From the NCBI RefSeq assembly GCF_021134715.1, contig NC_060017.1, positions 4,650,001 to 4,714,000 on the forward strand: a stretch of DNA of 64,000 bases, read 5' to 3'. Positions within the stretch are counted from its first letter, which is position 1. Every line of letters starts with the position of its first letter. Positions 2,151 through 41,914 of the stretch are shown in pieces. A model generated the notes under the pieces. It was not told the DNA's origin, ran no database searches, and saw nothing but the letters and a program-made list of their open reading frames with translations. Made by a program: the position numbers and the translations under genes. This stretch comes from Daphnia pulex (taxonomy: Eukaryota; Arthropoda; Branchiopoda; Diplostraca; Daphniidae).

Positions 2151-4942
2151 TCACATCCACTGTCGAATATTTTCCTGCGAAAAGCCGAAGCAGTAAGTTT
2201 ATGTAAGCTGAGACTTAAGGATGTCTAATTACCTTGACTTCCTCAGTGAGTGGACCACCTTCTAGTAGAAATTCAAGCTGAATACGCAGCTGAGGGGGAA
2301 TGTTCTTCGAGGATTGGACCGGAGACTGACTTGTACATGTCAAATATGGATGGGATAGAAGCTGCTCAATTGATGGTCGATTGCGCGGATTGCGATCGAG
2401 ACAGCCTTTTAGAACTGCTATAACCATCGGATCAGCAGTCAAAGGAAAGTCTATAACATGACGCTCATCAACGATGGCACTGATTTTCTCGATCGTGTCC
2501 CTGAACTTGCTAAAAGGTGGGTTCTTGTAGATGAGACTGTACAACATACAGCCAAGAGACCACACGTCTGTTTTCCTGCTTATCTGTAACTCAATAGTGT
2601 AATATTAATACGAAGATTTCGAACGGATAAGAATTCAACATACCTTATACTCTTGGTACGTTCCAGAAGGCGTAGCAGATTTGATTGCTTCTGGTGCCAT
2701 GTAATTGTATGTACCGCACTGGCTGTCCTTCATTATCGACGTCATGTCGGCCTAGAAAGAAAACGATTAAATCGATTCGTTTAAGATTTTAACAGTTCTC
2801 ATACCTGGATAGAAGTGGCAATACCGAAGTCGATCAACTTTAAGCCTCCATTGACCAAAAGAAAGTTAGCCGGTTTCAGATCTGTATGAATCACATCTAC
2901 AACGACAAGATTAATGAATGCTCATACTTATAATAGAAACAGTAATTACTTTTGTCATGAATCTCTTTCACAGCTTCTAACATTTCCTGCCAGTAAAAGC
3001 GAATCAGGGTAGGGTTGATGGCGTTGAGACTGGTGCGAGTCCGGATGACAGTTGCGAAGTCGGTATCACCCTTTTCCATTACCAACAACAATTTCTCTTC
3101 TTCTTCGTTGTACTCGCTACAGATTTGTATTACTTTACGGAATTGGAGGGCACATACTAGCAATTAACTTACTATTCAAGAAGGCGGACGACGCGAGGCA
3201 AACCTTGCAGTTGTTTCAATAGCCGGACTTCATTAATATAGCCTTCAGCTGTGACTTCGTCAACGGAATCAAGACGAACAACTTTTAAGGCAAATATGTC
3301 AGTCATTTCTTGGTTCAGTACCTGCGTTTCAAAAGTCAATAAATAAATCTAAAAAATGAGTTACGCAAGATTTCAAGTTCAACCTGATATACGACACTTG
3401 ATCCCCCACGCCCAAGCGGTTTCATAACGCTGTAAACCTTGCCGTTTACTGCTATCTGCTTGGTTTTCGGAGTCGGTCGAGCATTTGGAGGGGGTAAAAT
3501 ATTGTTGCTGGAAACTGGGGGAATTAATTTGCTTCGTTGCTCCACATGTTGTTGGATGGGATCAATTGGTTGAACTTCTGCCACGACGCTTACCACTGGT
3601 TGAATAGGTACTGGCAGCGGAGGTTTAGAGCTTGCTAGATTGAAAATTGGAGACGTTTCTGCCTGTACTTTGGGTAATAAAATGCCGAGTGATGGTTTTT
3701 GTTCATCGTTATGCATTTCAGTCTTCGAAGTCGAAGCTAACGAAACTAGGGATGATTCTCGTATTTTGGTTGTACTAAATGATGAATGTCCAGTCCACGT
3801 CAGCTTTTTAGCTAGTGGTGTTTGCGCTTGATCTAAAGGATGCATTTTGACAGTCGGTTGTGTCGGTAGTCCAAGAGCACTCGCTGTATCTGAAGTAGAA
3901 TTCAATCCTGATTTGTTCTTGGCATTGGTGAAAGCATATATTTCTTCCATTTCCGAAGGCACAGATGGTAACTTATGGGTCGAAAAGGATGACTTTTCCG
4001 GTTGGTTCCATGCAACAAATTCATTTTTTGCTCCAGGTAGAGGCATACGTGAAACATCTGGTTTTAGAATAGCAGCACAAGGTGCTTCTTCTTTTACTTG
4101 TGTTACTATCCCAAGTCCTTCAGTAACTAGTTTGATGGAGGACTCTTTATGAGATTCTGGATGATTGATTTTCGTGCCAAAACCTTGTTGGGTATTTGTG
4201 GAGGAAGGGCCATAACCCCATTTTGAAACCTTATCTTCTGAATTGCCAAATTTAGACTGTAGGTTGAGTGGAACCTCATGTTGCTGTTGGCTAATAGGCT
4301 TACGAAAGATGTCTGGGAGAGAATCACTGGTGAGAGTCAAAAGATTGGATACATTACTTTCTTGGAGAACATTGTTGTAATGTGCTTTTTCTTGAGTGGT
4401 GTTTCTCTCAACCGTGTGAAGAGAGTGGTCCAACTTTCTTATCCTGTGTAGTTCTGGTGTTGATTCAGAACGACCAAACCTTGCATGAAAAGGAGTTACA
4501 CAGTGGAATTTAACTTGAAATTTAAAAAAAATACTTTGGAGTTGATGGAAAATCATGTGTTCCAAATCTTGAATTATCATTTTCTTTGAAGCAAAGTCTG
4601 GGTGTCCGTGGCAACTGAGGCCTTCCTGGTGTCATAGGATTGAGATTGGAAGCAGACACACTGGATGGGCGGATCGGCTTCAAACCACTCTTCTTCCTTG
4701 CATATCTACTGGAATTGGTTCCTGTACCTCCATCATGATTCTGTGTATTTTCTCCTTTTGTAGCATCATCACTAGAAGTGGGACTTGGTCTTTGCCAACC
4801 AGGGGTGGCAGCAGTAGAGATTATTCTGTCAATAGACACATATATAAACCAAGTACCAAGAGAAAAGTTTGCTGACACTACTTAAAACTTACATCGGTGG
4901 TTTTTTTCTATCAATATCTTCTTTTCTTATAAGTCCATACAT
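2151..4942 (-). CDS. TTK: Dual-specificity spindle-checkpoint kinase TTK/Mps1
   Basis: Nine exons read in phase: 4893-4942, 4535-4825, 3384-4479, 3173-3321, 2950-3116, 2805-2896, 2644-2751, 2233-2583 and 2151-2174, giving 775 residues. TTK/Mps1 phosphorylates kinetochore proteins to run the spindle-assembly checkpoint. The first ~465 residues are Ser/Pro-rich and disordered, mostly in one large exon; I do not recognise the TPR domain of the vertebrate protein. The kinase domain follows: Gly-rich loop [11 protein letters not shown] (~469-479), ATP-binding Lys in FALK (~492), catalytic loop [10 protein letters not shown] with Asp ~590 (HTD where human TTK has HSD), LIDFG (~607), NYMAPEAIK and DVWSLGC. 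The DLKPANFLL and MAPEAIK blocks mark TTK rather than other kinases. The start at 4942 has an in-frame ATG and opens a short 50-nt coding exon. The last exon is only 24 nt; without it the frame would stop at 2215. Confidence 0.9.
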
Positions 4943-12270: not shown

Positions 12271-13224
12271 ATTATATCTACAACATAGTGTCTTAAATTA
12301 ATTACAATTTTTCTACTGTTCGTTTCAGAGATGTCCGTCAGTATGTGCGTATGTGCAATTAGTGGATTGTCCTTATGCTTTCAACTCTCGACAAAGCATC
12401 CACCGATAACAACGCTATATTGTTTCCTTCAATAATGTTCTTTTGCTTTGTAAGAGTTCATGGTCAGTTGGAGCTGTTTACATTGTTGCTGTTTGGTGTC
12501 CAGTGGTTTTGCAGTCCCTTTCCAGTTGAGAGATGCTCTGAAATGGAGTTTGTGCAGACTTGCAGTTCAACATCACACTTAAATGTGTCATTTGTCTATG
12601 TTGGTGTCCATGCAGTATTTGCAGTGTTGAACAGTTGGGTAAAATAGTTCATGCTGCCTGATGGCTGTCGGTCTTATTTTATCGGTTGCATTTTTTCGAT
12701 ATGTCATCCCTTGCTACCTGTATCGTCGTTTAGGTAATGCTTGATGTTTCGTTCAGTTATTGACTTTAAATTAAAGTCTCTATTCGTTTTTCAGTTTCAT
12801 CGTTTGCTGCCGTTCCATAGACTTGATCCATTGGTAAACTGAGGAGAGGTTGCTGAAATTCAAGAATCGTCAATAAATTATGTAGATGCTGTAGAAAAAT
12901 TACAAGTGCATATCTGGGCTCCCTTCTTCAGTGGCCCCGTTTCCCTAAATAACCACTAACCAACGCCCGCCGGTGGTCACTCACTCGCTGCGACAACCAG
13001 GAGGGAGGGAGATGTTTGGTCGAACGGGGACTTGCAAGGCGCATGATTCGATGAAATCTGTTGGAGGGTCATGAGTCTAAGCCGGAAGTCTACTATGATG
13101 CATTGCTCTCATAATAACTGCTCCTCAGCTCTCTTCGCTCTTTTTCCGGTTTCTCTTAACCACGGCCGGGTAATCTCCCTGGTAGAGTCAGTCGGGCAGT
13201 GTCTCCCCCTGCTTGACTGGCTGC

Positions 13225-13389
13225 AGTTTGTACCGGACGGTTTGTTTAATAAATAAAACAAGTAAAAAAAACCCATAAAACTTTCATTTTATAAATTGTT
13301 ATTCATTAATTAAATATGAAAGGTAACAACTTGATTAACAATCATATTTATATAACATTGCTTATTAAACAGACCGTCCGGTACAAACT
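13225..13389. repeat. Small inverted-repeat (MITE-like) element, left arm
   Basis: About 28-bp imperfect inverted ends (AGTTTGTACCGGACGGTTTG... and its reverse complement ending at 13389) flank a ~110-bp AT-rich centre. No clear target-site duplication is visible. A second copy occupies the mirror position in the other arm. Confidence 0.55.
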
Positions 13390-14980
13390 CTTAGTTAGTA
13401 CTATTGCTCAAAAACTGATTCTCTTTGAATCAGCAGACTCGAGAGTTTATAGCGCCGTCAAGGTAGATATTTCTGAATGGTACCCGTCTTGTCAACTGCT
13501 AATGATTCGTGTTCTTGGTTTGACAGAAGCTGTGTTGTGTGTGTTGATCGTCTCCACCATGCACGCGATAATCAAGACCAGCAACGTCTTGATCGAGAAG
13601 AAGAAAAGAACGGAGAAGCAAAGAACGACGATGTAAATAGCGGGGTGGGTACCGCTAAATTCATTCTTAGTTGAATGTCGAATCGCTAATATCATTGTTG
13701 GTTATGGTAGAACAGTTTTCCACACTGGTACGCTGTATGACGTCGAGCATTGCCAAAATGGAAGTGCTCTTTGAAGAACTGAGCGTCTAAATCTTCTTCA
13801 GTCAGATGAAGCTAACGGATTCGGAAATCTTAAAAGAAGCAGAGGACATCACAGCTAAAAAAAAACGTGAGTCAAACTCCTGTGGTTAAGTTCTGCAGCT
13901 ACTCTCAAAATATTTTGTCATGTTTGCTCGTGTTGATTGTAGACTGCTTTTAAATTATCTATCAGGGAAGCCCTAATAAGAGGTCCAAGAGAAATTTATT
14001 CGGGTCAACTGATACCATACCAAGTACTAAATCGTTAATGGTTTTCAGGTAAAAAATAACCATGAGAATATGGGGTCGCAGAAATAGATGTCAACTGGTG
14101 GAAAATAAGAAGGTGATATGGTATTTTTCTTTTCTTTTTTAAAAATATTGTCTGGTGATCAGATGATCAGATTTGGTGAGGAACATCCAATCTGTCCATC
14201 GCGGTCGCTAACTAATTGGTAGAAAAACAGCACCAATAATGGTAAGAAGGTGTGCTGTGAAGTGGCATGATAATTTTAATCATGGACATTCAGGTTTCAT
14301 TTCGTGATTTGTCAGGTCGAACTCGGATGTGCTTTATTCGAGATTTTAACACAAATTGCATTTTATACATAAAAAAATGTATCATAAAGCTATGTATTAC
14401 AGCATTACCCGTACTATGGCTCGTCCCGGTTTGTATTGCTTTGTATTATCTTTAGTTGAACGCTAAATTAATTAGAGGCTAGCTAAGAGAATTTGGCTAG
14501 ATCTTTACAAGATTAGTGAATGTGATTTTTTAAAGAAATTGTGCCTGTTGCACATCGATATTATTGGCCTTGATTCTTAAAGGTGGCTTGGCTAAACTTT
14601 CGACGGTTAAACTCTATTTAATAAATAGATAATATAACATTTAGCTAATGATCTAGCATTCTTGACTAAATATTTTCAGGCAACTTTTGAAGTTTATGTG
14701 GGCACTGATTTGCAGAGTGCTCGTGACGCCAACAGATAAAATGGCCCAATCCATATTGCAAATTTGCAAGCTGTCTTCCAAAACCATCCAAAACCAAGGA
14801 ATTTCTATTTGCAAATTGGTAATTATTTCAACCAATGTTTCTTTTTATTACTGTGCTAATAATAATTCAAGTGATGAAGTCTAATTAGGTAGAAAACCTT
14901 TCTGAAAAGTTTGGGAGCCATTGTTAATTTCAATTGGTATATAAAGTGAGTTTTAAGCCATAATCATTTGGTAATAATTT
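13390..14980. other. Left-arm sequence with exon-like fragments, no intact gene
   Basis: Between 13560 and 13640 a frame reads RLDREEEKNGEAKNDDVNSG. At 13712-13788 another reads EQFSTLVRCMTSSIAKMEV and on to ELSV before a stop, and at 13806-13860 a third reads MKLTDSEILKEAEDITAKKK. They look like exons of one protein, but the phases do not join across the plausible introns and I do not recognise the family. All have mirror copies at 23980-24490. The rest is AT-rich. Confidence 0.3.
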
Positions 14981-14984
14981 TTAT

Positions 14985-15370
14985 ATCATTGGTTGTTGTA
15001 GACCCATTCCAATCCCCAGCAACGTAAACCTGCAGAAGGAAAGGCACGTAAAACTTGTCATGCAGTGGTGTAGAGGTTGGGTGAGAACGGGATGTGTTAC
15101 ATAACCATTTGGTATTCATTTTGATATTGGTTGTTGTAGACCCATCCCCAGCAACGACAACCTGCAAAAGAAAAGGCACGTAAAACTTGTCAAAAAGAGG
15201 AAGGGTGAGAACGGGATGTGTCACATAACCATTTTCATTTTGATATTGGCTGTTGTAGACCCATCCCCAGAAACTTCATCCTGCAAAAGGAAAGGGCAGT
15301 CCACATTTCCTTCACATTCGAAGGTCACGGAGATCATTACATAAAACGTATCATGCAGTGGTGTAGAGGT
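14985..15370. repeat. Three-unit tandem repeat upstream of tyrosine-rich gene, left arm
   Basis: Three diverged units begin with GG(T/C)TGTTGTAGACCC at 14991, 15129 and 15248 (spacing 138 and 119 bp). Each continues with CCCAGCAACG-type sequence, an AAAGGCACGTAAAACTTGTC block and GGGTGAGAACGGGA. They end ~85 bp before the TATA box of the first tyrosine-rich gene and could be duplicated regulatory sequence; that is inference. Confidence 0.7.
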
Positions 15371-15454
15371 TGGGTGAGAACGGGACGTGTTTCATCATTT
15401 TTAAGCAGCTGCAATAGCCGCAAGGCTTAAGAGGTGAGGGTGATCAAAAAATCG

Positions 15455-15490
15455 TATAAAACGAGAGAGAAAAGGCGAAGGTAAATCAGT
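15455..15490 (+). promoter_or_regulatory. TATA box plus initiator, left-arm tyrosine-rich gene 1
   Basis: TATAAAA at 15455-15461 is followed 33 bp later by TCAGT (15486-15490), the arthropod initiator consensus, at the expected spacing. The presumed start site precedes the ATG at 15549 by about 60 bp. It faces the palindrome centre. Confidence 0.7.
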
Positions 15491-15548
15491 TGAGGGAGCA
15501 TCTCCGACACGGCAACAACTGCAGAGCTCTGTCTGTCAGTTCGCATCT

Positions 15549-16540
15549 ATGGGTAAATATTCTGTCTTTTACAAAGAGTGTGGTATATCAATCCTTCTTT
15601 TGTTTATGTGTGCTTGTTATAATGTAATATTTATATTTAAATTTATAATTGTCTAGTAAACTGTGGCGTCGTGCTGCTGTTGTGTGTTGAATCATTAATG
15701 GCTGGGTCGACCACTGGTGTACCGATGTCTTCTTGGTATGGCGGATACCAAACCGCAACGCCACCGCCTTACTACCCAAAAGCAACTTACGCAATGACCA
15801 GTTCCTGCACCGATGTCTTCAAGTACTACACCACTAAAGCACCGGAGTTTTATAGCACAATTTACGCTGCCCCGAGCCACTACACTGACGCCACGAAGTT
15901 TTACTCTGCCCCGAGTTACTACACCACCAAGGCGACGTAGCATGACTACCCATGCTGCCCCATCCTACTACACCGAAGCTCCTAAGTATTACTCTGTTCT
16001 CATCTACTTATTGCACCGATTTTCCTAAATACTACTCTGTTCCCAGCTGCTACACCGAGACTCCCGCTGATTACTACACCGAAGCGGCAAAGTACTACTC
16101 TGCCCCGATCTACACAACCACAACTGAGGCGGCCAAGTATTACGCTGCCCCGACTCACTGCACAGAAGCTGCTCTTTCGTACTACGTTGAACAGAAATAC
16201 TACACCGATGCTCCAGTTCACTACACCACGACCTACGCTACACCACGACCTACGCTACACCACGACCTACGCTACACCACGGCCTTCGCTACACCGCAGC
16301 CTCCAAGTACTACACCGAAGACGCCGCCTACAACAACGTATGCTGCCTAGTTTAGTTCACCGAGGCTCCCAAGTACTACATCACTAAGGCGTCGGAATTC
16401 TACACGTCTATGTATGCTGCCCCTGCCTGCTCCACCGGGGCCCCGCATTACTACAACACTGAAGCGCTCAAGTACTACACTACAACCTGCGCTGCCCCGA
16501 GCTACTACACCTACGTCCCGGAGTATTACTGTGCGTAAAA
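15549..16540 (+). pseudogene. Tyrosine-rich YYT-repeat secreted protein gene 1, disrupted, left arm
   Basis: Exon 1 holds only ATGG (15549-15552) before a GTAAAT donor. The intron ends at TAG (15656) and exon 2 starts at 15657. The spliced frame opens with signal-peptide-like VVLLLCVESLMAG and continues into repeats of Tyr-Tyr-Thr with Ala/Pro (AAPSHYTDATKFYSAPSYYT), stopping at 15940 after 95 residues. Repeat sequence continues beyond the stop in other frames (HAAPSYYTEAPKYYS, then YYTEAAKYYSAPIYTTTTEA) to a last YVPEYYCA stop at 16540, so one longer gene has been broken by frameshifts. A 17-bp tandem repeat at about 16223-16296 adds another frame change. Such Tyr-rich secreted proteins are likely cuticle, egg-coat or adhesive material (inference). 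A 95-residue product could still be made. Confidence 0.75.
16223..16296 (+). repeat. 17-bp minisatellite inside tyrosine-rich gene 1
   Basis: About four tandem copies of a 17-bp unit (GACCTACGCTACACCAC), the last one diverged. Because 17 is not a multiple of three, each copy shifts the reading frame. The mirror copy lies at about 21666-21739. Confidence 0.8.
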
Positions 16541-16626
16541 GGAGTCGTAAGAAAAAAGAAGTGCCCGAACTGCAGTGCCCTATCTGTCACCAACTGCATT
16601 CCTCGTCGTGTAACCGATTCGCAATT

Positions 16627-17366
16627 ATGGGTAAATATTCTTTTTCTATTTGTTAATATGCTTGTTAATATTTAATATTCATGTTTCAATTTACCAACTA
16701 TGGCGTCGTGCTCCTGTTGGGTGTTGTATCGTTGATGGCTGGGTTGACTGCTGGTGTAGCGATGTCTCCTTGGTATGGCGGAAACTGAACCGCAACGCCG
16801 CCGCCTTCCTACACAACTAACGCAGCAACCAGTTCCTGCACCGAGGTCTTCAAATACTACACCACCGGAGTTTTATTGCACAATTTACGCTGCCCCGAGC
16901 CACTACACTGACGCTATGAAGTTTTACTCTGCCCCGAGTTACTACTCCATCTAGGAGACGGAGTACTACATGACTACGCATGCTGCCACATCCTACTACA
17001 CCGAGGCTTCTAAGTATTACTCTGTTCTCAGCTACTTATTGCACCGATTTTCCTAAATGCTACTCTGTTCCCAGCTGCTACACCGAGGCTCCCGCTGATT
17101 TCTCCACCAAGACGGTTGAATACTACACCGAAGCGGCAAAGTACTTCTCTGCCCCGATCTACGCAACCACAGCTGAGGCGGCCAAGTATTACGCAGTCCC
17201 GACTTGCTACACACAGGCCGCTCTTTCGTGCTATGTTGAACAGAAATACTACACTGATGCTCCAGTCTACTACACCACGACCCTCGCTACACCTAGCTTC
17301 AACACCGCGGCCCCCAAGTACTACACCGAAGAAGCCGCCTATTACACAACTACGTACGCTGCCTAG
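16627..17366 (+). pseudogene. Tyrosine-rich YYT-repeat gene 2, disrupted and acceptor lost, left arm
   Basis: Tandem relative of gene 1. Exon 1 again ends ATGG (16627-16630) at a GTAAAT donor. In this arm a 12-bp deletion near 16697 has removed the 3' splice site seen in the mirror copy, leaving ATTTACCAACTATGG with no AG. The signal-peptide frame (VVLLLGVVSLMAGLTAGVAM) then meets TGA at the position of the first repeat. Repeat sequence continues in shifted frames (YYTEAAKYFSAPIYATTAEA and similar) to a final YYTTTYAA stop at 17366. It cannot encode a full protein. Confidence 0.78.
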
Positions 17367-17369
17367 TTT

Positions 17370-18884
17370 ACTACATCGACGAATTTAAGTATTGCCCCGC
17401 TCCAAACTACCAAACTTAGGTTCATATGTATTGCAATTTTCATGACTATATCACCACTGCTCCGACCTACCTAAGTTCTGAAGTATTTCTCTGTATTTGT
17501 GAAAGATTGCTGAAATACAAGATTGATTTTAAAACACAAGTGCATGTTTCTATTTTCTCCTTAAATACCTTCTGCTGACAATTGCATGATGTGAGAAAAT
17601 TTTTCTGAATGGTATGTAAACTTACAAATAATTGATCTTGCCAAATACACTGATGAAAATTCAAACTCTTTTTTCAATAATATTTAAACTCTTCCCTTTT
17701 TATAAAATTGAAAGTCCAACAAATTTTCTGAAAAATTCAAAGTCCACACACCTAATTTTTCTGCTAAGTCCAGACTTTTGTTTTTGAAAAAAAATTTAAA
17801 AAAATCCCCCTTACACGAGATTTTAAGAAATTCATCGCGAAAAAGATTGATACGAATATTTTATTGCATACAAAATTTATTTTTATAACATTTTACATAC
17901 ATCATATACATTTTTCCTGTGGCCCCCAGGGGGGGGGGGCCTGTCGCTTTCTCTACCGCGATAATAACATGATGCAAGTTATATGCAAGTTATTATTTGT
18001 TTGGCGCAGAAAGCTTGTTTTATCTAGCAGTTCTCGACTGTTTCAAACCTGACATTGATCAGGTTGCCTCAGTCGTATACTGCATGATTGAATGAAAACT
18101 CAAGACAACAGATCAAACTTTTAACGCAGCAACACAAAATATCACTGGCAGAGCAATTTCATATGGCATGGATGAAAACGACAACACCAAATTTTTGAAG
18201 TCAGGAACCCAGATAGAACAGCTCAGCTACAACAGCACAGCAACTTCTGGATTACACTGCAACTGCATACAAAGGCTCAATCTGTCTTCGTCACACCTTT
18301 CACCATTTGGCTGCAACAAGGTAACCACCAGCGTTAAAGAAGTGTTTGTTATACCTGTTCAAGAAAAGAAAATTAGTTTCGAGAAACACAACTGTGTACA
18401 TATGCATACTCATTATAACAAAAGAATACAAAGAGTAACAGAAAACTACGCAGACTAACAGAATAACTTTGATATCTGATTCAAACTTTCTATAGAAGCA
18501 GAGCAAATCATTCTACTCTCTAGTCATGTTAACTAAATCTGTAGTACTTTAACAAGACATTTGATCAAAATAATTACTTTTTTCTGTTGCATGAGATGAG
18601 ACGTACGCCTAAGAAGAGGCAGCGAGACACACGAGGCAAGCCATTTCGGAAATGTACAGGGACTTCCAAGTCTGAGTTGAATGATTTGGCAAATTAGTTT
18701 CAACGTGCTAAATCACCTGTAAATTTACACATCAACATTTTACATTCAATAACAATAGAAAATTAACAATAAATACCTTTTAATTTTTATCGTGAGGAGC
18801 GTGACAGCCAACAACCTACTTCAGCTGCGTCTAGGAACAAAATGGCCGCTTAGTGTTCCTGAAGACACTCGCGCTACCTGGTGG
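17370..18884. other. Inner part of left arm, no gene
   Basis: AT-rich sequence with a run of ten or more G (about 17929-17939). Short frames here appear identically in the mirror arm and show no codon bias or family resemblance. The last ~600 bp resemble the diverged third copy at 25955-26905. Confidence 0.5.
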
Positions 18885-19062
18885 TATCATATCCATAGAT
18901 ATCATTCATCCACTTATTTAGTTAGCAGTTAGTCATGTTGAATCTAAAGGAAATATGTCAATAAATATTCCAATATTCATCCAATAAACTAAAGTTAATG
19001 GTTACCTACTGCTCGTCTTTAACATTCAGAAAAAATACTTATGAATGATGAATGAATGATAT
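18885..19062. other. Spacer at the palindrome centre
   Basis: About 178 bp without a mirror partner, apart from a short ATATCATTCATC similarity on both sides. It contains AGTCATGTTGAATCTAAA and AATAAACTAAAGTTAATG, which recur in the same order at 26820-26870. The spacer therefore belongs to the ancestral unit and sits in the orientation of the left arm. Confidence 0.75.
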
Positions 19063-20583
19063 CCACCAGGTAGCGCGAGTGTCTTCAGGGACGCTTAGCG
19101 GTGGCCATTTTGTTCCGAGACGCAGCTGAAGTAGGTTGTTGGCTGTCACGCTCCTCACGATAAAAATTAAAAGGTATTTATTGTTAATTTTCTATTGTTA
19201 TTGAATGTAAAATGTTGATGTGTAAATTTACAGGTGATTTAGCACGTTGAAACTAATTTGCCAAATCATTCAACTCAGACTTGGAAGTCCCTGTACATTT
19301 CCGAAATGGCTTGCCTCGTGTGTCTCGCTGCCTCTTCTTAGGCGTACGTCTCATCTCATGCAACAGAAAAAAGTAATTATTTTGATCAAATGTCTTGTTA
19401 AAGTACTACAGATTTAGTTAACATGACTAGAGAGTAGAATGATTTGCTCTGCTTCTATAGAAAGTTTGAATCAGATATCAAAGTTATTCTGTTAGTCTGC
19501 GTAGTTTTCTGTTACTCTTTGTATTCTTTTGTTATAATGAGTATGCATATGTACACAGTTGTGTTTCTCGAAACTAATTTTCTTTTCTTGAACAGGTATA
19601 ACAAACACTTCTTTAACGCTGGTGGTTACCTTGTTGCAGCCAAATGGTGAAAGGTGTGACGAAGACAGATTGAGCCTTTGTATGCAGTTGCAGTGTAATC
19701 CAGAAGTTGCTGTGCTGTTGTAGCTGAGCTGTTCTATCTGGGTTCCTGACTTCAAAAATTTGGTGTTGTCGTTTTCATCCATGCCATATGAAATTGCTCT
19801 GCCAGTGATATTTTGTGTTGCTGCGTTAAAAGTTTGATCTGTTGTCTTGAGTTTTCATTCAATCATGCAGTATACGACTGAGGCAACCTGATCAATGTCA
19901 GGTTTGAAACAGTCGAGAACTGCTAGATAAAACAAGCTTTCTGCGCCAAACAAATAATAACTTGCATATAACTTGCATCATGTTATTATCGCGGTAGAGA
20001 AAGCGACAGGCCCCCCCCCCCTGGGGGCCACAGGAAAAATGTATATGATGTATGTAAAATGTTATAAAAATAAATTTTGTATGCAATAAAATATTCGTAT
20101 CAATCTTTTTCGCGATGAATTTCTTAAAATCTCGTGTAAGGGGGATTTTTTTAAATTTTTTTTCAAAAACAAAAGTCTGGACTTAGCAGAAAAATTAGGT
20201 GTGTGGACTTTGAATTTTTCAGAAAATTTGTTGGACTTTCAATTTTATAAAAAGGGAAGAGTTTAAATATTATTGAAAAAAGAGTTTGAATTTTCATCAG
20301 TGTATTTGGCAAGATCAATTATTTGTAAGTTTACATACCATTCAGAAAAATTTTCTCACATCATGCAATTGTCAGCAGAAGGTATTTAAGGAGAAAATAG
20401 AAACATGCACTTGTGTTTTAAAATCAATCTTGTATTTCAGCAATCTTTCACAAATACAGAGAAATACTTCAGAACTTAGGTAGGTCGGAGCAGTGGTGAT
20501 ATAGTCATGAAAATTGCAATACATATGAACCTAAGTTTGGTAGTTTGGAGCGGGGCAATACTTAAATTCGTCGATGTAGTAAA

Positions 20584-21335
20584 CTAGGCAGCGTACGTAG
20601 TTGTGTAATAGGCGGCTTCTTCGGTGTAGTACTTGGGGGCCGCGGTGTTGAAGCTAGGTGTAGCGAGGGTCGTGGTGTAGTAGACTGGAGCATCAGTGTA
20701 GTATTTCTGTTCAACATAGCACGAAAGAGCGGCCTGTGTGTAGCAAGTCGGGACTGCGTAATACTTGGCCGCCTCAGCTGTGGTTGCGTAGATCGGGGCA
20801 GAGAAGTACTTTGCCGCTTCGGTGTAGTATTCAACCGTCTTGGTGGAGAAATCAGCGGGAGCCTCGGTGTAGCAGCTGGGAACAGAGTAGCATTTAGGAA
20901 AATCGGTGCAATAAGTAGCTGAGAACAGAGTAATACTTAGAAGCCTCGGTGTAGTAGGATGTGGCAGCATGCGTAGTCATGTAGTACTCCGTCTCCTAGA
21001 TGGAGTAGTAACTCGGGGCAGAGTAAAACTTCATAGCGTCAGTGTAGTGGCTCGGGGCAGCGTAAATTGTGCAATAAAACTCCGGTGGTGTAGTATTTGA
21101 AGACCTCGGTGCAGGAACTGGTTGCTGCGTTAGTTGTGTAGGAAGGCGGCGGCGTTGCGGTTCAGTTTCCGCCATACCAAGGAGACATCGCTACACCAGC
21201 AGTCAACCCAGCCATCAACGATACAACACCCAACAGGAGCACGACGCCATAGTTGGCTAAACACTAAATAAATTGAAACATGAATATTAAATATTAACAA
21301 GCATATTAACAAATAGAAAAAGAATATTTACCCAT
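20584..21335 (-). pseudogene. Tyrosine-rich YYT-repeat gene 2, disrupted, right arm
   Basis: Mirror of the left-arm gene 2 but with the first intron intact: ATGG at 21332-21335, GTAAAT donor, and acceptor TTTAG with exon 2 starting at 21256. Splicing gives MANYGVVLLLGVVSLMAG and on to MSPWYGGN, then TGA at 21162-21164, a 32-residue product that is little more than a signal peptide. Repeat-coding sequence follows in other frames to the stop at 20584. The premature stop shared with the left arm shows the gene was already broken when the arms were last identical. Confidence 0.78.
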
Positions 21336-21421
21336 AATTGCGAATCGGTTACACGACGAGGAATGCAGTTGGTGACAGATAGGGCACTGCAGTTCGGGCA
21401 CTTCTTTTTTCTTACGACTCC

Positions 21422-22413
21422 TTTTACGCACAGTAATACTCCGGGACGTAGGTGTAGTAGCTCGGGGCAGCGCAGGTTGTAGTGTAGTACTTGAGCGCTT
21501 CAGTGTTGTAGTAATGCGGGGCCCCGGTGGAGCAGGCAGGGGCAGCATACATAGACGTGTAGAATTCCGACGCCTTAGTGATGTAGTACTTGGGAGCCTC
21601 GGTGAACTAAACTAGGCAGCATACGTTGTTGTAGGCGGCGTCTTCGGTGTAGTACTTGGAGGCTGCGGTGTAGCGAAGGCCGTGGTGTAGCGTAGGTCGT
21701 GGTGTAGCGTAGGTCGTGGTGTAGCGTAGGTCGTGGTGTAGTGAACTGGAGCATCGGTGTAGTATTTCTGTTCAACGTAGTACGAAAGAGCAGCTTCTGT
21801 GCAGTGAGTCGGGGCAGCGTAATACTTGGCCGCCTCAGTTGTGGTTGTGTAGATCGGGGCAGAGTAGTACTTTGCCGCTTCGGTGTAGTAATCAGCGGGA
21901 GTCTCGGTGTAGCAGCTGGGAACAGAGTAGTATTTAGGAAAATCGGTGCAATAAGTAGATGAGAACAGAGTAATACTTAGGAGCTTCGGTGTAGTAGGAT
22001 GGGGCAGCATGGGTAGTCATGCTACGTCGCCTTGGTGGTGTAGTAACTCGGGGCAGAGTAAAACTTCGTGGCGTCAGTGTAGTGGCTCGGGGCAGCGTAA
22101 ATTGTGCTATAAAACTCCGGTGCTTTAGTGGTGTAGTACTTGAAGACATCGGTGCAGGAACTGGTCATTGCGTAAGTTGCTTTTGGGTAGTAAGGCGGTG
22201 GCGTTGCGGTTTGGTATCCGCCATACCAAGAAGACATCGGTACACCAGTGGTCGACCCAGCCATTAATGATTCAACACACAACAGCAGCACGACGCCACA
22301 GTTTACTAGACAATTATAAATTTAAATATAAATATTACATTATAACAAGCACACATAAACAAAAGAAGGATTGATATACCACACTCTTTGTAAAAGACAG
22401 AATATTTACCCAT
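21422..22413 (-). pseudogene. Tyrosine-rich YYT-repeat gene 1, disrupted, right arm
   Basis: Mirror of the left-arm gene 1: ATGG at 22410-22413, exon 2 from 22305, first stop at 22022, last repeat stop at 21422. The 95-residue first frame is identical in the portion compared. It has the same frameshifts and the same 17-bp minisatellite. Its promoter mirrors the left-arm one and also faces the palindrome centre. Confidence 0.75.
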
Positions 22414-22471
22414 AGATGCGAACTGACAGACAGAGCTCTGCAGTTGTTGCCGTGTCGGAGATGCTCCCTCA

Positions 22472-22508
22472 ACTGATTTACCTTCGCCTTTTCTCTCTCG
22501 TTTTATAC
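22472..22508 (-). promoter_or_regulatory. TATA box plus initiator, right-arm tyrosine-rich gene 1
   Basis: Exact mirror of 15455-15490: TATAAAA on the minus strand, then TCAGT 33 bp downstream. Together with the left-arm promoter it gives two convergent start sites about 7 kb apart. Confidence 0.7.
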
Positions 22509-22591
22509 GATTTTTTGATCACCCTCACCTCTTAAGCCTTGCGGCTATTGCAGCTGCTTAAAAATGATGAAACACGTCCCGTTCTCACCCA

Positions 22592-22977
22592 ACCTCTACA
22601 CCACTGCATGATACGTTTTATGTAATGATCTCCGTGACCTTCGAATGTGAAGGAAATGTGGACTGCCCTTTCCTTTTGCAGGATGAAGTTTCTGGGGATG
22701 GGTCTACAACAGCCAATATCAAAATGAAAATGGTTATGTGACACATCCCGTTCTCACCCTTCCTCTTTTTGACAAGTTTTACGTGCCTTTTCTTTTGCAG
22801 GTTGTCGTTGCTGGGGATGGGTCTACAACAACCAATATCAAAATGAATACCAAATGGTTATGTAACACATCCCGTTCTCACCCAACCTCTACACCACTGC
22901 ATGACAAGTTTTACGTGCCTTTCCTTCTGCAGGTTTACGTTGCTGGGGATTGGAATGGGTCTACAACAACCAATGAT
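22592..22977. repeat. Three-unit tandem repeat, right arm
   Basis: Mirror copy of 14985-15370, with the same three GTTGTAGACCC-type units in reverse complement. Confidence 0.7.
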
Positions 22978-22999
22978 ATAAAAATTATTACCAAATGAT

Positions 23000-25170
23000 T
23001 ATGGCTTAAAACTCACTTTATATACCAATTGAAATTAACAATGGCTCCCAAACTTTTCAGAAAGGTTTTCTACCTAATTAGACTTCATCACTTGAATTAT
23101 TATTAGCACAGTAATAAAAAGAAACATTGGTTGAAATAATTACCAATTTGCAAATAGAAATTCCTTGGTTTTGGATGGTTTTGGAAGACAGCTTGCAAAT
23201 TTGCAATATGGATTGGGCCATTTTATCTGTTGGCGTCACGAGCACTCTGCAAATCAGTGCCCACATAAACTTCAAAAGTTGCCTGAAAATATTTAGTCAA
23301 GAATGCTAGATCATTAGCTAAATGTTATATTATCTATTTATTAAATAGAGTTTAACCGTCGAAAGTTTAGCCAAGCCACCTTTAAGAATCAAGGCCAATA
23401 ATATCGATGTGCAACAGGCACAATTTCTTTAAAAAATCACATTCACTAATCTTGTAAAGATCTAGCCAAATTCTCTTAGCTAGCCTCTAATTAATTTAGC
23501 GTTCAACTAAAGATAATACAAAGCAATACAAACCGGGACGAGCCATAGTACGGGTAATGCTGTAATACATAGCTTTATGATACATTTGTTTATGTATAAA
23601 ATGCAATTTGTGTTAAAATCTCGAATAAAGCACATCCGAGTTCGACCTGACAAATCACGAAATGAAACCTGAATGTCCATGATTAAAATTATCATGCCAC
23701 TTCACAGCACACCTTCTTACCATTATTGGTGCTGTTTTTCTACCAATTAGTTAGCGACCGCGATGGACAGATTGGATGTTCCTCACCAAATCTGATCATC
23801 TGATCACCAGACAATATTTTTAAAAAAGAAAAGAAAAATACCATATCACCTTCTTATTTTCCACCAGTTGACATCTATTTCTGCGACCCCATATTCTCAT
23901 GGTTATTTTTTACCTGAAAACCATTAACGATTTAGTACTTGGTATGGTATCAGTTGACCCGAATAAATTTCTCTTGGACCTCTTATTAGGGCTTCCCTGA
24001 TAGATAATTTAAAAGCAGTCTACAATCAACACGAGCAAACAAGACAAAATATTTTGAGAGTAGCTGCAGAACTTAACCACAGGAGTTTGACTCACGTTTT
24101 TTTTTAGCTGTGATGTCCTCTGCTTCTTTTAAGATTTCCGAATCCGTTAGCTTCATCTGACTGAAGAAGATTTAGACGCTCAGTTCTTCAAAGAGCACTT
24201 CCATTTTGGCAATGCTCGACGTCATACAGCGTACCAGTGTGGAAAACTGTTCTACCATAACCAACAATGATATTAGCGATTCGACATTCAACTAAGAATG
24301 AATTTAGCGGTACCCACCCCGCTATTTACATCGTCGTTCTTTGCTTCTCCGTTCTTTTCTTCTTCTCGATCAAGACGTTGCTGGTCTTGATTATCGCGTG
24401 CATGGTGGAGACGATCAACACACACAACACAGCTTCTGTCAAACCAAGAACACGAATCATTAGCAGTTGACAAGACGGGTACCATTCAGAAATATCTACC
24501 TTGACGGCGCTATAAACTCTCGAGTCTGCTGATTCAAAGAGAATCAGTTTTTGAGCAATAGTACTAACTAAGAGTTTGTACCGGACGGTCTGTTTAATAA
24601 GCAATGTTATATAAATATGATTGTTAATCAAGTTGTTACCTTTCATATTTAATTAATGAATAACAATTTATAAAATGAAAGTTTTATGGGTTTTTTTTAC
24701 TTGTTTTATTTATTAAACAAACCGTCCGGTACAAACTGCAGCCAGTCAAGCAGGGGGAGACACTGCCCGACTGACTCTACCAGGGAGATTACCCGGCCGT
24801 GGTTAAGAGAAACCGGAAAAAGAGCGAAGAGAGCTGAGGAGCAGTTATTATGAGAGCAATGCATCATAGTAGACTTCCGGCTTAGACTCATGACCCTCCA
24901 ACAGATTTCATCGAATCATGCGCCTTGCAAGTCCCCGTTCGACCAAACATCTCCCTCCCTCCTGGTTGTCGCAGCGAGTGAGTGACCACCGGCGGGCGTT
25001 GGTTAGTGGTTATTTAGGGAAACGGGGCCACTGAAGAAGGGAGCCCAGATATGCACTTGTAATTTTTCTACAGCATCTACATAATTTATTGACGAGTCTT
25101 GAATTTCAGCAACCTCTCCTCAGTTTACCAATGGATCAAGTCTATGGAACGGCAGCAAACGATGAAACTG
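23000..25170. other. Outer part of right arm, mirror of left-arm exon-like fragments
   Basis: Mirrors 12.79-14.96 kb. It holds the same unrecognised exon-like frames (about 23980-24490, minus strand) and the same small inverted-repeat element at 24573-24737. No intact gene is seen. Confidence 0.45.
24573..24737. repeat. Small inverted-repeat (MITE-like) element, right arm
   Basis: Mirror copy of the element at 13225-13389, with the same ~28-bp inverted ends. Confidence 0.55.
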
Positions 25171-25515
25171 AAAAACGAATAGAGATGTTAATTAAAAGTC
25201 AATAACTGAACGAAACATCAAGCATTACCTCAACGCCGGTACCAAGAGACGACATATCGACAAAATGCAGCCGATAAAATAAGACTGACAGCCACCAGGC
25301 AACATTGACTATTTTACCCAACTGTTCAACACTGCAAATACTGCATGGACACCAACATAGGCAAATGAAACATTTAAGTGTGATGTTGAACTGCAAGTCT
25401 GCACCAAACTCCATTTCAGAGGATCTCTCAATTGGAAAGGGGCTGCAAAACCACTGTAGACCAAACAGCTACACCAAACCAACCACAAACTCCTACAAAG
25501 CAAAAGAACATTAAT

Positions 25516-25954
25516 GAAACAAAAACATTTTGAAATGTGAAAAAGGGTACCAATAATAAAATTTACTAAATTTAAAATTAATAATAAATTGAAATTAAAA
25601 AAGAAACCAGGAAATAATTCTGTACATCTACTTCCAATATGTTACAAAAACTTGGTAATACTAAGTGGGAATTTTTGTTCTAGTGGGACTAATTTAATTG
25701 GAAGAAAATTGAAAAAAAAACTCAGTGGAAGTTGACCACTAATGTGGCTATTTTTGAAGGGAACCAATTGTTTGGAAGGGGGAAATATAAACCCTAATTT
25801 TCTACATCACATCAAATTAAACTTGTCTGTTGAATACAAAATAAAAAAACAAACAAACAAGCAAACAAAGAAAACACAAGACTTGCCAATAACCAATAAT
25901 ATCAATATAATTACCAATTCAAGAAGTCTTCCTGCAGTGACACTTTAGATAACA
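25516..25954. other. AT-rich spacer, no gene
   Basis: Lies between the outer edge of the right arm and the third diverged copy. It is mostly A-rich, with an AAAC repeat around 25845-25875. Nothing coding is seen. Confidence 0.5.
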
Positions 25955-26905
25955 CCAGCTTGATAAACTGCATGCGGCAGCTGCAGCTCAACTTGACTCG
26001 ATCACACCTTTCACCAGCTGGCTGCAACAAAACCATGTTAATGAACGACAGCCATGAAGCTCAGACTTTGTTGTGTTTTCAATTTCTGCAACAGTTGAGC
26101 AAACGGATCTCTGTCTCTGAAATATATATATCAACTAATAAATCCTATTGCATTATTGCAGGGAAATTTATCATCAAAATTACTTTATTACAAGCTCTGA
26201 AGTGTTTCTGCACGAGATGAGACGTAGAGCCGAATAGGTAGTTAGGTACAGCTAACAATCGCCGACATTTCGGCAAAATGGACAGCAGTTTCGACCCAAG
26301 TGAAATTATATGCCAGATTGCCTGTAAATTCAGACAGAAACGTTAAGATTAATCAAATTTAAGAAATCCAAACTAGCACTACCAATTACATTTCATGGCT
26401 GAAAATGTAGATCGACACCGCAATTCCGATAATAAATTTGGAGTACACTTTCAGTCAGCGTCTCGGAAACAAATGGCTAATTTTCGTCCTCACGAAGACA
26501 CTCGCGTCACCTGGTGGATGAACCAAATTTTTAGCCACCTACTGACGGCCAAAACATTTGACAGTGCGGAACGGATGGATTGCTATCCGAACTCTGTTTC
26601 CGAGGCTTAAAATCACGACTCACGAGAAATGGATTATTAGATACACTTCACATACAAATAAATCTGATGAGATTGGGGGTATGGGGGGTCTAGACAAAAA
26701 ATAAAACTTACAATTTTCTGAAGAAAAGAATAATTTTCCTGGCTGTGGCTGTAATACGGTAGCAGCAGCAACGGTTATCTGTGTATGAGTTAGAGTTCCA
26801 ACTAACTTTGGCATCAAACAGTCATGTTGAATCTAAACCAACATTAATGCAATAAACTAAAGTTAATTGCTACCTACTGCTTGAGTAAAAAATTCAGATA
26901 AATAC
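25955..26905 (+). repeat. Diverged third copy of the palindrome's inner segment
   Basis: Blocks recur in the same order as at 18255-19035. They are TCACACCTTTCACCA with GGCTGCAACAA (25993-26027), GAGATGAGACGTA (26215-26227), GAAGACACTCGCG with ACCTGGTGG (26497-26518), GTCATGTTGAATCTAAA (26821-26837) and AATAAACTAAAGTTAAT followed by CTACCTACTGCT. It runs parallel to the left arm and includes the spacer sequence, so it predates formation of the palindrome. Divergence is far higher than between the arms. Confidence 0.75.
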
Positions 26906-27634
26906 AACACATGTTTGTATGTGCCAGGCTGCATCTTTTCATGCGACTTCCCCTAAGTTGCTGAAATAAACCTGAAGATTACCCAAATACCCATGGCCTT
27001 GATTATGTTCTCATAGCTTTCTCTATGATAGAATTTAAAAGTTTTATGAGCTAACAATTTTAATGGAAGAATTCCCTGAATCCCTTCCATTTCTGCAGAC
27101 GCACTTTAGTTTAAGGGAACATCATCTATCAAGCGTAACCAAAATTTTCGTTTCTGCTATCGCATTTGCGTAAACTTCGCACGACTCTTTGGCATGTTTA
27201 CTACTTTAGGGTTGGAATAACATACATCTATACCAGTATTCTATAGCTGTGATCGGCTGTGATAGAAGAGTAACTCGAGCCTCTCACTCTACGCTTAGTG
27301 AGAACCTTGGGGTTTACCGTCTTTTTATTTTGATAAAAGTTTAAGTTGCTAAAGCTACAGCTAAACCAAGATGTATTTCCAATCGCTTGATTAACATACA
27401 AAAATAACATTATTAAAGAAAAGAAACTCAACATAACTTCTTTGTTGACGAATGATCAAAGGAAAACAAATGTGAAGAAACTCCCTTACTCGAGTCAAGG
27501 GAAGTAATCAGTGAAAAAAAAAAAGACATAGGGTTGTCAAATCTTACTTGACTCGTCTGTTAGTTGTACGAAGTTGGAAATGTCAATTAATAAAATTCCA
27601 CGTATGCGACAAAATAAGAACTCACGCCTGCAAG
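26906..27634. other. 3' flank of the PIWI gene
   Basis: AT-rich. The part from about 27365 to 27634 is the PIWI 3' UTR or immediate flank and has a decayed copy at 33222-33655. No separate gene is seen. Confidence 0.5.
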
Positions 27635-30600
27635 TTAAAGATAGTAAGGAAGTCTCGATAAATTGTCGTGCGGTTGCTGCATAATGGATTCACCAACTAG
27701 GTATGCCAGTTTATGAGCATACTGGATCGGAGCTGGGATACGCAAAGTACCCTAAAAACAAAAGTGATAACATAAAATAAGATTACCGATAAAATATTTT
27801 GTACCGGCCAATTGTAGTAGAGATGCGTTAGGGCGTACGCCAACCTCTGGTGGATGTCAGGACTGATACCAGTATCATCTTCTATGATATTGTAACTTGT
27901 AGGTGAGACAGTCCCTTGAGTGACTTTTTGTGAAACAAGAAAAAAATCGTATCTCTCTTGTAGCGTCACTTTACTGTCCACAACCGTGCCACAAACAGGA
28001 TTCATCGGGCTACGACCACTCATTTGAAAAAAACGAGTGTTGATGCGCTTGCTGACAACGATGAAAGCAATGGAAGGAGTGTACTCTGTTGTTCCACGAA
28101 GTCCCGCAGTCCTTATGCCAGCTTCACGGCAGGCTTCCTACTCAGCAACAACAAAGTTAGGGGAAAAAAACTTTCTTTACCTACCAATGATCAATATTAC
28201 CTTCAACGCGGCGATTTCTGTATCTTTCAGGCGTGGAATATCGCCAGCTCCTACACCATCACGGTAAACAATGATGGATGTCGGCAAAGTCTTATCGTTT
28301 ACAATAAAATAAGCTCTGTGGAGTTTAAATCAATTAATGAAATGCCAATTTAAATAAAGCACGTAGATAAACTACTTCAATGCTCCGAAAAGATGGTCTT
28401 TGAAACTTGGAGAAATCTCTTCATTGTTTTCGTGGATTTTGACAGAAGAATAGTATTTGGAAAACGTTGGGTTAGTGGAGGCAACAAATGCCCCTACAGC
28501 TTTTCTCTGACGAGCATCATGGTACGTGTCATAACCGATTACCATCCATTTCTAATAAATAAATAACAGTAAAGAAAAAAAGAAATTGAAAAAAAAAATT
28601 ATTTTCAGTTACAGTGTTAGGAACCGAGACTCTCCAAGGTTCTGCTCCTAATTTGGATGCAATTTGGATCATGACTTTTGTAGCAATCGACATGAGTTTG
28701 CCTGGTTGTCCCTTTATGTTCCGCCCGGTAATTACCTGTTCAAATTAGTTGAAAGCGTTGTTATTCAGAATATAGCTATACTACTTGTGATTACAAAAAA
28801 AAAAAAAAAAAGCAATACCTGTGAAGGAATACCAAATTCTGCACATGTCAGCTTCTTAATTGAAGAATACGTGTCAGCACGAGCGCTTCGTAGTACACAA
28901 AATATCAGACTAAATCCTTTTTGGCGACATTCATTACGAATCGCATCAACGTAATTTGACGTACGATCCATTTGCATCTGGGAACTGTCATAGAAAGCAA
29001 TTCAGTTCATTTCGAAAAACGTTGATACGAGAGCAACTGACAAAAATAAAACTTACACAACAGGATCTGGGATATCAAATCCTTGTCCACGTCCAACATT
29101 TTGGACCATTTGAATGAAAGGTTTTACTTCTTGCGTCATGGAAGATGGGGTGAACAAAGCCCAATCACGGAGTTCCACCGTTACACACATTTTGGACCCT
29201 AATTAATGAAAGTCTTGATTAAATTTCTTCATGTTAAAATATATAATATAAATGTTATTAAAAACCAACGTTGAATATTTCGACTCCAGTCTCCATCCTG
29301 GGTTGTAAAACTATTACCGCCCTGTTGAATCGTTTGTGGAGGAATTACACGCGCGTTTATCCGAACTATGTCGCCAGCAAAATTTAATCCCCAGCTATTG
29401 AGTTCTCTTTGAATCTAAAAATGACGTTATTGTAGACTGCTTAAAATGATCTGTAGATGAAACTCACTTCCGGGTTGTCCGCCAATCGTTTGCGAAACCT
29501 CATTAGGCTCTCAACACGCTTGTCTGGCATTACGCGTGTGATGTTGCCAACATCTTTCATAAGGGTAAAGTTTTTCCTTAAAAAAAAAAACAACAAAAAG
29601 TTAAATTACATTTAAAAAAAACATTCACATTTATCAATTTTTACTTTTGGTCATCTGTTAGGCCAGTCATTCCACAGAGCTCAGGAATAAGAAAGATCGG
29701 TTGATCGTCACCTCGATTGGCGTCACGACGAGTGGGGCGAGACACCAACAAAGGCTGTGTGGGTTGTCTCACTTCGATGTTGTAGCGAGTCTTGTAATAC
29801 TCCAAGTATGAAATGTCACGATCTTCCCTTCGAAGATGAAAAGTTGAGTTCGGATTTTTCGTGAAGTCAATGTCATCGATTCGGTAAGTTCTCTTGTTAT
29901 AGTGAGTCATGACAACTTTTCCCACTAGCTCTGCAGAGCACATTGCCTAAATATGGTTAGGTGGATAATGTTTGTCATTGAAAACGTAACACGAACACAA
30001 CTGAGACAGAAATCACCTGAAAGTCACCACCAGCCTGGCGAATTTTTTGCATCACATCCAAGGCAGAATCTCGACGCAAAACACGATGAATGATTTCAAC
30101 TCCTAACAAAAATCCTTCTTCGTGGTGGCGTATAGTAGTGACATACCCAGGCCAAATATTCAAAAAATGTTGCTACACAAGAAATGTTTTATTACATTAA
30201 AATTATAAACATTTGAAATGACGACAAATAACTTACTGGAATTTCTGTGGCAGCTGCCGGATCATAGTAATCCCGTTTCCAAAGAGTTAGATTAAGCATG
30301 CCAAGACAACGTCTCAATATAATATTCATAACCTAAATAGATTGTAAATAAAATAAACCCAATCATTCTAAGACAATGCACCACTTACTGTTGTATAAGC
30401 AGCGTCATCCTTGTGAATTTCTCCGACTAATCGTAAATGAATAGCAACATCCGAGTTATCTGAAATGCGTTTAGATAAGAGCTCCAGCGGCTAAACAAAA
30501 AATATAAAGCTATTAAGTAGTTTCAGAATGGCTCCAAAACTTAAACTTACTTGGGGAAGGCGAGTGATATTGTAAAGCAGAGTTCCATCAAAAAGATACT

Positions 30601-41912: not shown

Positions 41913-41914
41913 TA

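Follow-up and report, generated by a model that had tools for sequence, protein, structure and literature searches.

Are the two arms of the long palindrome in this part of the Daphnia pulex genome alike because the palindrome is young, or because they are kept alike? When the window (the whole stretch of 64,000 nucleotides analysed here) was compared with itself using BLASTN, the arms formed one long inverted match of 98.95% identity (6480 columns, 34 mismatches and 13 gap openings; Table 1), and the length and identity of this match rule out chance. The 13-kb near-perfect palindrome described in the earlier note is thus borne out, and its centre, placed there at about 18974, was measured at about 18973; the spacer has to be corrected, since the matched arms leave 165 bp (18891-19055) rather than the 178 bp claimed. 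The arm differences that had been described were also found, namely a 12-bp indel (21257-21268 present, missing at 16693), one of 3 bp near 18845, point changes and diverged outer ends. They are concentrated in the outer 440 bp and the centre-most 60 bp: within 12870-18830 the arms are separated by only two substitutions (13920 A/T and 14374 A/C) and the 12-bp indel. A second palindrome, of 0.9 kb, is present in the window at 41014-41914.

Table 1. Positions of the palindrome, its parts and a neighbouring relic in the window
Feature	Position	Strand	Basis or remarks
Left (U) arm	12428-18890	+	In sense with core; inverted BLASTN match to 19056-25518
Outer-end dispersed repeat	12428-13256	+	Found at many other genomic places; outer end of D arm is the mirror copy
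TATA-box-like TATAAAA	15455-15461	+	Upstream of gene copy 1; from sequence
Gene copy 1	15549-15940	+	ATG at 15549, intron, exon 2 at 15657-15940; splice sites by eye
Gene copy 2	16627-17366	+	Tyrosine-rich pseudogene with broken frame
Inner arm segment	17420-18890	+	Common to compared loci; unmatched in two long-frame relatives
Spacer between arms	18891-19055		165 bp, non-palindromic; BLASTN self-match
Central core	18926-19034	+	109 bp, common to other family loci; AATAAA at 18960 and 18983
Right (D) arm	19056-25518	-	Inverted BLASTN match to left arm; arms of 6.46 kb
Relic of a further unit	25986-26902	+	Fragments of the inner arm, plus a core fragment (81%) at 26838-26902

The window palindrome belongs to a set of related mirror-image loci that numbers some two dozen or more. 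Across the genome (133.2 Mb in 13 contigs), 69 arm-gene clusters were found among 150 scored hits; 25 of these clusters, on 10 contigs, are convergent inverted pairs and none of the 69 is a divergent pair. In 23 of the 25 convergent pairs the outermost hits of both arms have equal bit scores. The inner arm end near window position 18890 is the same in two-armed and one-armed loci across many contigs, and the unit common to the loci measures about 4-6 kb per arm. At most other sampled loci, homology to the outer repeat extends further outward than in the window. The second arm is broken or diverged at L018, L020 and L024, and in six loci that retain a single arm the survivor is the one in sense with the core. 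The core was recognised in 22 of 27 arm loci (in one of them partially); loci L009-L028 had been chosen for core similarity. Because the inner arm end and, mostly, the core are common to the loci, the inverted structure is probably older than the spread of the family. Membership of a genome-wide family was absent from the earlier note, and no account of the family was among the papers listed from the open-licence PubMed Central literature on Daphnia and on dispersed palindromes.

A tree was computed for 31 arms, which came from 20 loci: the window palindrome and 19 of the 20 loci fetched. Arms that matched over less than about 1.2 kb were left out. The U and D arms were sisters at 10 of the 11 two-armed loci, with 100% support at nine and 63% at L012; L026 provides the non-sister pair, and separate clades of U and D arms did not form in this tree. 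Differences between U and D per ~1.4 kb numbered 0 at seven loci, then 1, 6, 27 (substitutions at L012) and 105 (substitutions at L026), and the mean distance between loci was 3.4% for A-A, 9.3% for B-B and 10.5% for A-B comparisons. The structure is therefore common to loci that are 3-11% apart, yet at most two-armed loci the arms are near-identical to each other, which supports homogenisation. The earlier note had offered recent origin or active homogenisation: the latter gains from these comparisons, whereas they do not support a recent origin of the window palindrome alone. The common inner breakpoint and the sister arms indicate a structure older than the divergence of its arms, as in concerted evolution. 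At L026, the sole locus with a mosaic-like pattern, the arms differ by about 1.4% in the outer 2.2 kb and by about 10% in the inner part, with a 600-bp indel between; divergence climbs to 3-5% over the last 450 bp before this indel. The apparent likeness of arms could be inflated by multi-mapped reads at polishing.

We consider it likely, on the strength of these sequence comparisons, that the loci form a dispersed family of convergent inverted duplications whose arms are kept alike by gene conversion. The starting unit would have comprised two tyrosine-rich gene copies, the inner segment and the 3' core; this ancestral unit would have given rise to a head-to-head pair centred on the core, and the palindromic block would then have spread to many sites by some duplication route. 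Gene conversion between the arms, the best-supported step, would since have kept both alike at each site. It would act between the arms of one locus but seldom across loci, so that arms are alike inside a locus and diverged between loci. Conversion presumably fades at the outer edges and in the spacer, where differences collect, and some copies would leave the homogenised state through loss of an arm or symmetry-breaking indels.

Function of the gene copies is not needed to explain the likeness of the arms. Copy 1 has a predicted product of about 95 aa, a secreted tyrosine-rich protein (TAG at 15938-15940), and TATA and exon 1 are retained at many copy-1 genes of the family. Elsewhere in the genome there are relatives whose open frames are long (548 and 360 aa), and the TATA layout before copy 1 recurs ahead of the long-frame relatives in L065 and L066. 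A pN/pS of 1.19 was obtained from nine A-type gene copies with few differences (L011 and L017 counted despite an in-frame stop, L015 left out); it replaces a value of 1.11 from a set including L023, in which an indel puts the codons out of register. With this ratio and truncated or broken frames, the arms gave no indication of functional genes under constraint. Five arm frames, drawn from 81 stop-to-stop frames of at least 60 aa around the palindrome, were scanned against Pfam, and none matched a family above cut-off. Retroposition was discounted as the source of the one-armed copies, since they still contain the intron and sequence from upstream of the TATA.

Near-perfect arms are a usual sign of artefacts in which missed-adapter chimeric reads, or two haplotypes joined head to head, create false palindromes. 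We regard such an origin as highly improbable: the 165-bp spacer holds a core that is homologous at many loci, the same inner breakpoint occurs on many contigs, and the arms differ at L012 and L026. A missed adapter is not known to produce an asymmetric spacer. The earlier argument against an assembly mirror is strengthened by this asymmetric core and by these unlike arms. It is also very unlikely that each palindrome is its own recent, independent inverted duplication that arose without gene conversion. Near-identical arms at many loci, and outer arm stretches of other loci that are absent from the window, would suit such an origin, but the common junction would demand identical breakpoints repeatedly, and at L026 the two degrees of arm divergence adjoin each other. 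Neither fresh duplication nor an assembly mirror thus appears to fit as well as arm-to-arm gene conversion.

A foldback-type transposon with very long inverted repeats, mobilised by a transposase in trans, would account for the dispersal over 10 contigs and for the common unit in each arm. It is nevertheless an unlikely explanation. No common outer terminus was found at 22 outer ends (2 in the window and 20 fetched) or in flanks of 4 kb at four further inverted pairs, but this is weak evidence, as only the pair at 9.82 Mb on C12 is known to contain arm genes. The arms of the C12 pair extend 1.6 kb beyond the left-arm end of the window palindrome, and the three other outer-repeat inverted pairs, as seen from their flanks, extend 0.8, 1.4 and 3.3 kb further. 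The lack of Pfam families in the five scanned frames would also tell against a transposon, although non-autonomous elements encode no transposase. Alternatively, the loci may be sources of hairpin RNA, in which convergent promoters or read-through yield a putative long dsRNA that silences intact tyrosine-rich genes. The convergent gene orientation in 25 of 25 pairs, the retained TATA and exon 1 and the long-frame relatives as possible targets are consistent with this proposal, which we find very unlikely: exact arm 21-mers matched the two long-frame loci in only 13 and 18 of 3391 cases, and the AATAAA sites, at 18768 and within the core, could bring read-through to an end. On these matches, the case for arm-derived small RNA that targets the intact genes looks weak.

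With gene conversion retained as the preferred reading, the role of the core remains to be considered. The AATAAA in the core is kept at 21 of 21 aligned loci. A candidate CTCF-like site, GCGCTACCTGGTGG (18871-18884, +), lies where the arm ends on its inner side, with a mirror candidate at 19063-19076 (-). On contig C5, 16 cores lie between 7.0 and 11.4 Mb, with gaps from under 0.01 to about 1 Mb. There is a slim chance that the palindrome centre is a working device, with cores spread along the chromosomes as putative transcription-stop and boundary points. The components of such a device would, equally tentatively, be a constrained core with AATAAA and a divergent CTCF-like pair where both arms survive; the arms might then persist, though we would not expect it, because gene conversion keeps symmetry around the core. 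The core is dispensable for the palindrome structure, being unrecognised in 5 of the 27 arm loci, and as a driver of homogenisation it was set aside on account of the same five. Two of these five have equal or almost equal inner-arm scores, 1768/1768 (C1, 5.23 Mb) and 1786/1784 (C2, 1.22 Mb), and in their centre pieces the arms were 98.9% identical over 176 bp at L058 and 99.7% over 373 bp at L061. Counter-examples are L059, with only 91.3% over 184 bp, and L062, where one arm was seen; at L060 the centre piece examined held only a 22-bp inverted match. A 35-base core pattern had no match in an IMG/VR scan, no Rfam family was found across the window (two weak matches near the centre, far below gathering scores, were taken as chance), and ARAGORN detected no tRNA genes.

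Primate X/Y palindromes are much larger than those of Daphnia. They resemble the Daphnia family in arm-to-arm gene conversion, which keeps arm identity over 99% (PMC3723533, PMC8981503), but they are sex-linked, whereas the Daphnia family is dispersed on 10 of 13 contigs and has broken coding frames. In Caenorhabditis, the consulted part of one report describes paralogous gene pairs in long near-perfect inverted repeats for which active maintenance was proposed, with, at one locus, 2207-bp arms that are 99.7% identical around a 126-bp spacer (PMC1803023). Long near-identical arms, paralogous genes and a short spacer are common to both systems; the Caenorhabditis pairs are convergent or divergent and lie at separate sites, no common core being reported in that part of the source, whereas in Daphnia one family with a common core occupies many sites, is convergent only and consists mostly of pseudogenes. 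Gene palindromes of Adineta vaga and Folsomia candida, likewise inverted duplications of invertebrates in which a part for gene conversion has been discussed, were detected through annotations as colinear gene arrangements, in a survey whose palindrome screen omitted D. pulex for want of annotation (PMC7953838).

Large palindromes are usually studied singly, and in many cases on sex chromosomes. In this genome a single palindrome type is repeated at many sites that differ in spacer, in arm loss and in state of decay, so that the Daphnia family offers natural replicates for the speed, reach and ending of conversion and for its need of a selected gene; no such need is visible in this family. Many Daphnia isolates have been sequenced. 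Since mutation-accumulation lines are also reported for D. obtusa (PMC12926508), the rates could be measured directly.

Self-comparison of the window yields one long inverted match, 12428–18890 against 25518–19056, at 98.95% over 6480 columns, which bears out the large near-perfect palindrome claimed in the earlier note; the spacer, put there at 178 bp, measures 165 bp. Column-by-column comparison places the arm differences mainly in the outer 440 bp and in the 60 bp nearest the centre, and just two substitutions and one 12-bp indel separate the arms across 12870–18830. The left arm ends early, at a point where most of 20 sampled outer ends run on. Adjoining the right arm is a relic of a further unit (25986–26902, plus orientation), made up of fragments of the inner, core-side arm at 75–82% and a fragment at 81.5% of the core, the 109-bp central segment at 18926–19034. 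The palindrome is real and is one member of a dispersed family.

The genome searched comprised 133,188,837 bases in 13 contigs, and the window lies at C1:4650001–4714000; the thirteenth contig (15,333 bp) has, within its first 10 kb, what looks like a mitochondrial cytochrome oxidase 1 frame under code 5. A 387-base arm piece found 484 candidate places, and the best 40, which were scored, include many plus/minus pairs ~2.8–6.1 kb apart; a similar pattern was obtained with an inner-arm query (best 40 of 184 candidates scored) and an outer-arm query (best 40 of 528). Searched as protein, the arm's gene returned 1588 candidates, the best 150 of which were scored and fall into 69 clusters: 25 convergent (plus-then-minus) on 10 contigs, 44 in a single orientation and none divergent, the counts of 69, 25 and 44 being lower bounds, with the second arm unscored in some of the 44. 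The cluster at C5 9.717 Mb, for example, is single-orientation by gene matches, yet both arms are present in the inner-arm search. The outermost matches of both arms have equal bit scores in 23 of the 25 convergent pairs and unequal ones at C2 3.81 Mb and C4 5.665 Mb; at C12 9.40 Mb an inner match pair is unequal. Parts of some contigs, C4 and C5 in particular, are dense in family copies.

Twenty loci (L009–L028), picked from the best core matches, were fetched as 10-kb pieces centred on the core. Nine contain an inverted match of 3.6–4.9 kb at 96.8–100%, the longest being bounded by the pieces themselves. Shorter strong matches occur in L020 (1.9 kb at 100%) and L026 (2.2 kb at 98.2%), the palindrome is degraded in L018 and L024, and no such inverted match across the core was found in the remaining seven fetched loci (L010, L011, L015, L021, L022, L023 and L025). 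The unit common to the loci runs from ~14930–15230 to 18890 in window coordinates, and reaches ~12.4 kb at several of them. Two kinds of spacer were distinguished, a short one of ~165 bp (A type, including the window) versus one of ~1.0–1.4 kb (B type); the A-type loci L016 and L017 have additional spacer sequence, and the U side (the arm in sense with the core) is short in L019. The inner end of the opposite, D arm, like that of both arms of B-type loci, lies at 18878–18893 wherever it could be placed, and A-type U arms extend across the spacer and on into the core, with 18895 as the end of the query. The core is common to both types; its immediate flanks are unlike between them. In L021 the core lacks an arm match on the sense side, and those gene copies found on the opposite side belong to the C5 9.29-Mb palindrome cluster.

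When the core itself was searched for, all of the best 40 of 98 candidates matched at ≥90%, mostly over the 109 bases alone, and a 35-base core pattern allowing ≤3 mismatches gave 41 matches genome-wide (reversed control, 0). Inner-arm matches were grouped into 27 arm loci, 21 of which adjoin a core; a 22nd, at C4 1.44 Mb (L063), retains an exact 41-base core piece, and no recognisable core was found in the fetched pieces of the other five (L058–L062). Across the fetched loci and the window, the core diverges less than the inner arm within the A type (1.8% vs 3.4%; core lower in 41 of 45 pairs), within the B type (4.3% vs 9.3%; 41 of 45) and between types (4.1% vs 10.5%; 100 of 100), in a comparison whose pairs are not independent and whose loci were selected by core similarity, which favours low core divergence. 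Outside the core, the B spacer diverges by 9–11%. Of 21 cores, 18 have the sequence GTCAATAAATATTCCAA intact (exceptions L013, L026 and L027); the AATAAA inside it is kept in 21/21 and a second AATAAA in 18/21, which suggests a poly(A) role.

The motif GCGCNMYCTRSTGG, which we take to be a CTCF-like consensus, has three occurrences in the window, where 0.01 would be expected. One sits at each inner arm end and the third, a 14-mer at 41448, in the loop of a second palindrome. Of the 20 fetched loci, 18 contain a slightly looser form, as an inverted pair in ten, as two sites in the same direction in L024 and as one site each in L012, L014, L016, L018, L022, L023 and L025; it is absent from the fetched pieces of L015 and L021. 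A longer pattern gave 51 matches genome-wide, mostly in family loci and some elsewhere (reversed control, 0). The recurrence of these sites is mostly explained by descent, and a CTCF role is a lead only. The second palindrome (41014–41914, 0.9 kb, arms of ~424 bp, TA at both edges) has at least 23 matches of 99–100% over a full 447-base query, its own included, among the best 40 of 135 candidates scored, and probably represents a foldback or MITE-like element with recent activity. Elsewhere in the window are direct repeats of 74–87% identity (27445–27661, 33303–33415 and 33484–33701) and, on the minus strand at 2215–4878, protein kinase exons (Pkinase E 5e-15 for 2215–2604), presumably of a TTK/Mps1-like kinase.

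Six fetched loci are one-armed (L010, L011, L015, L022, L023 and L025), and in 6/6 the survivor is the arm in sense with the core; L010 and L011 retain a ~26-bp remnant of the D arm. The core is downstream and in sense in 18 of the 18 single-orientation clusters that have one within 9 kb, a figure that is not a number of arm losses because at least one of those clusters is in fact two-armed. Either the sense unit is selected or ancestral, or the loci descend from few events.

Features of the tyrosine-rich gene, with a putatively secreted product, in the left arm (window coordinates)
Feature	Position	Basis
TATAAAA	15455	arm sequence, by eye
Likely start	near 15487	arm sequence, by eye
Gene copy 1, exon 1	15549	arm sequence, by eye
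Gene copy 1, exon 2	15657–15940	arm sequence, by eye

The product of copy 1 starts with a signal-peptide-like MVNCGVVLLLCVESLMA, followed by Tyr-rich repeats up to a stop at 15938; in a second copy, from 16627, the frame is broken. In two relatives on C7 (L065 and L066), open frames run to 548 and 360 aa and encode tyrosine-rich repeat proteins that begin with a signal-peptide-like stretch; the promoter layout is similar to that of the arm gene, and an inner-arm match is absent from the 6 kb examined around each. Nine A-type copies give a pN/pS of 1.19, with means of 1.1 silent and 4.3 replacement differences per pair, so that on this small number of changes no protein constraint is seen in them.

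No common outer terminus was found among the 20 sampled ends and the flanks of four other inverted pairs. The arms of the C12 9.82-Mb palindrome extend 1.6 kb beyond the end point of the window's left arm and another 0.75 kb beyond an insertion in one arm, and three further pairs, recognised by the outer repeat alone, extend 0.8, 1.4 and 3.3 kb further. Segmental duplication is our default guess for the spread of the family; movement as an element could also account for it. The outer end of the arm (12428–13256 and its mirror) is a dispersed repeat also found away from known arms; read by eye, it appears to contain small introns and to carry an AATAAA at its end.

No account of this family was found among the papers listed by our searches of the open-licence PubMed Central literature. 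Judging from excerpts of the two papers, the nearest published case among those listed is a Caenorhabditis study (PMC1803023), and D. pulex is omitted from the palindrome screen of a survey of parthenogenetic animals (PMC7953838). This kind of palindrome is already known; as far as these searches show, its multi-copy form, dispersed and with a common core, is undescribed.

The window and 19 of the fetched loci, 20 loci in all, supplied 31 inner arms for a tree, with U and D assigned by core direction; arms lacking a ~1.2-kb match were left out, which excludes L021 and the second arm in each of L018, L020 and L024. U and D are sisters in 10 of the 11 two-armed loci, with 100% support in nine and 63% in L012. 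Were the palindrome as old as the split of the A loci, ~48 differences in 1431 bp (3.4%) would be expected between arms without homogenisation; per ~1.4 kb there are none in the window, L009, L013, L014, L017, L019 and L028, one in L016, six in L027 and 27 in L012. The arms of L026 are not sisters (105 of 1312 positions differ): over its outer 2.2 kb, 31 of 2221 differ (1.4%), climbing to 3–5% over the last 450 bp, and a ~600-bp indel then precedes an inner part with ~10% divergence. Repeated inverted duplication, with identical breakpoints each time, is much less likely. Most likely, the symmetry of the window's palindrome is kept by arm-to-arm gene conversion, with no visible need for the genes that its arms carry.
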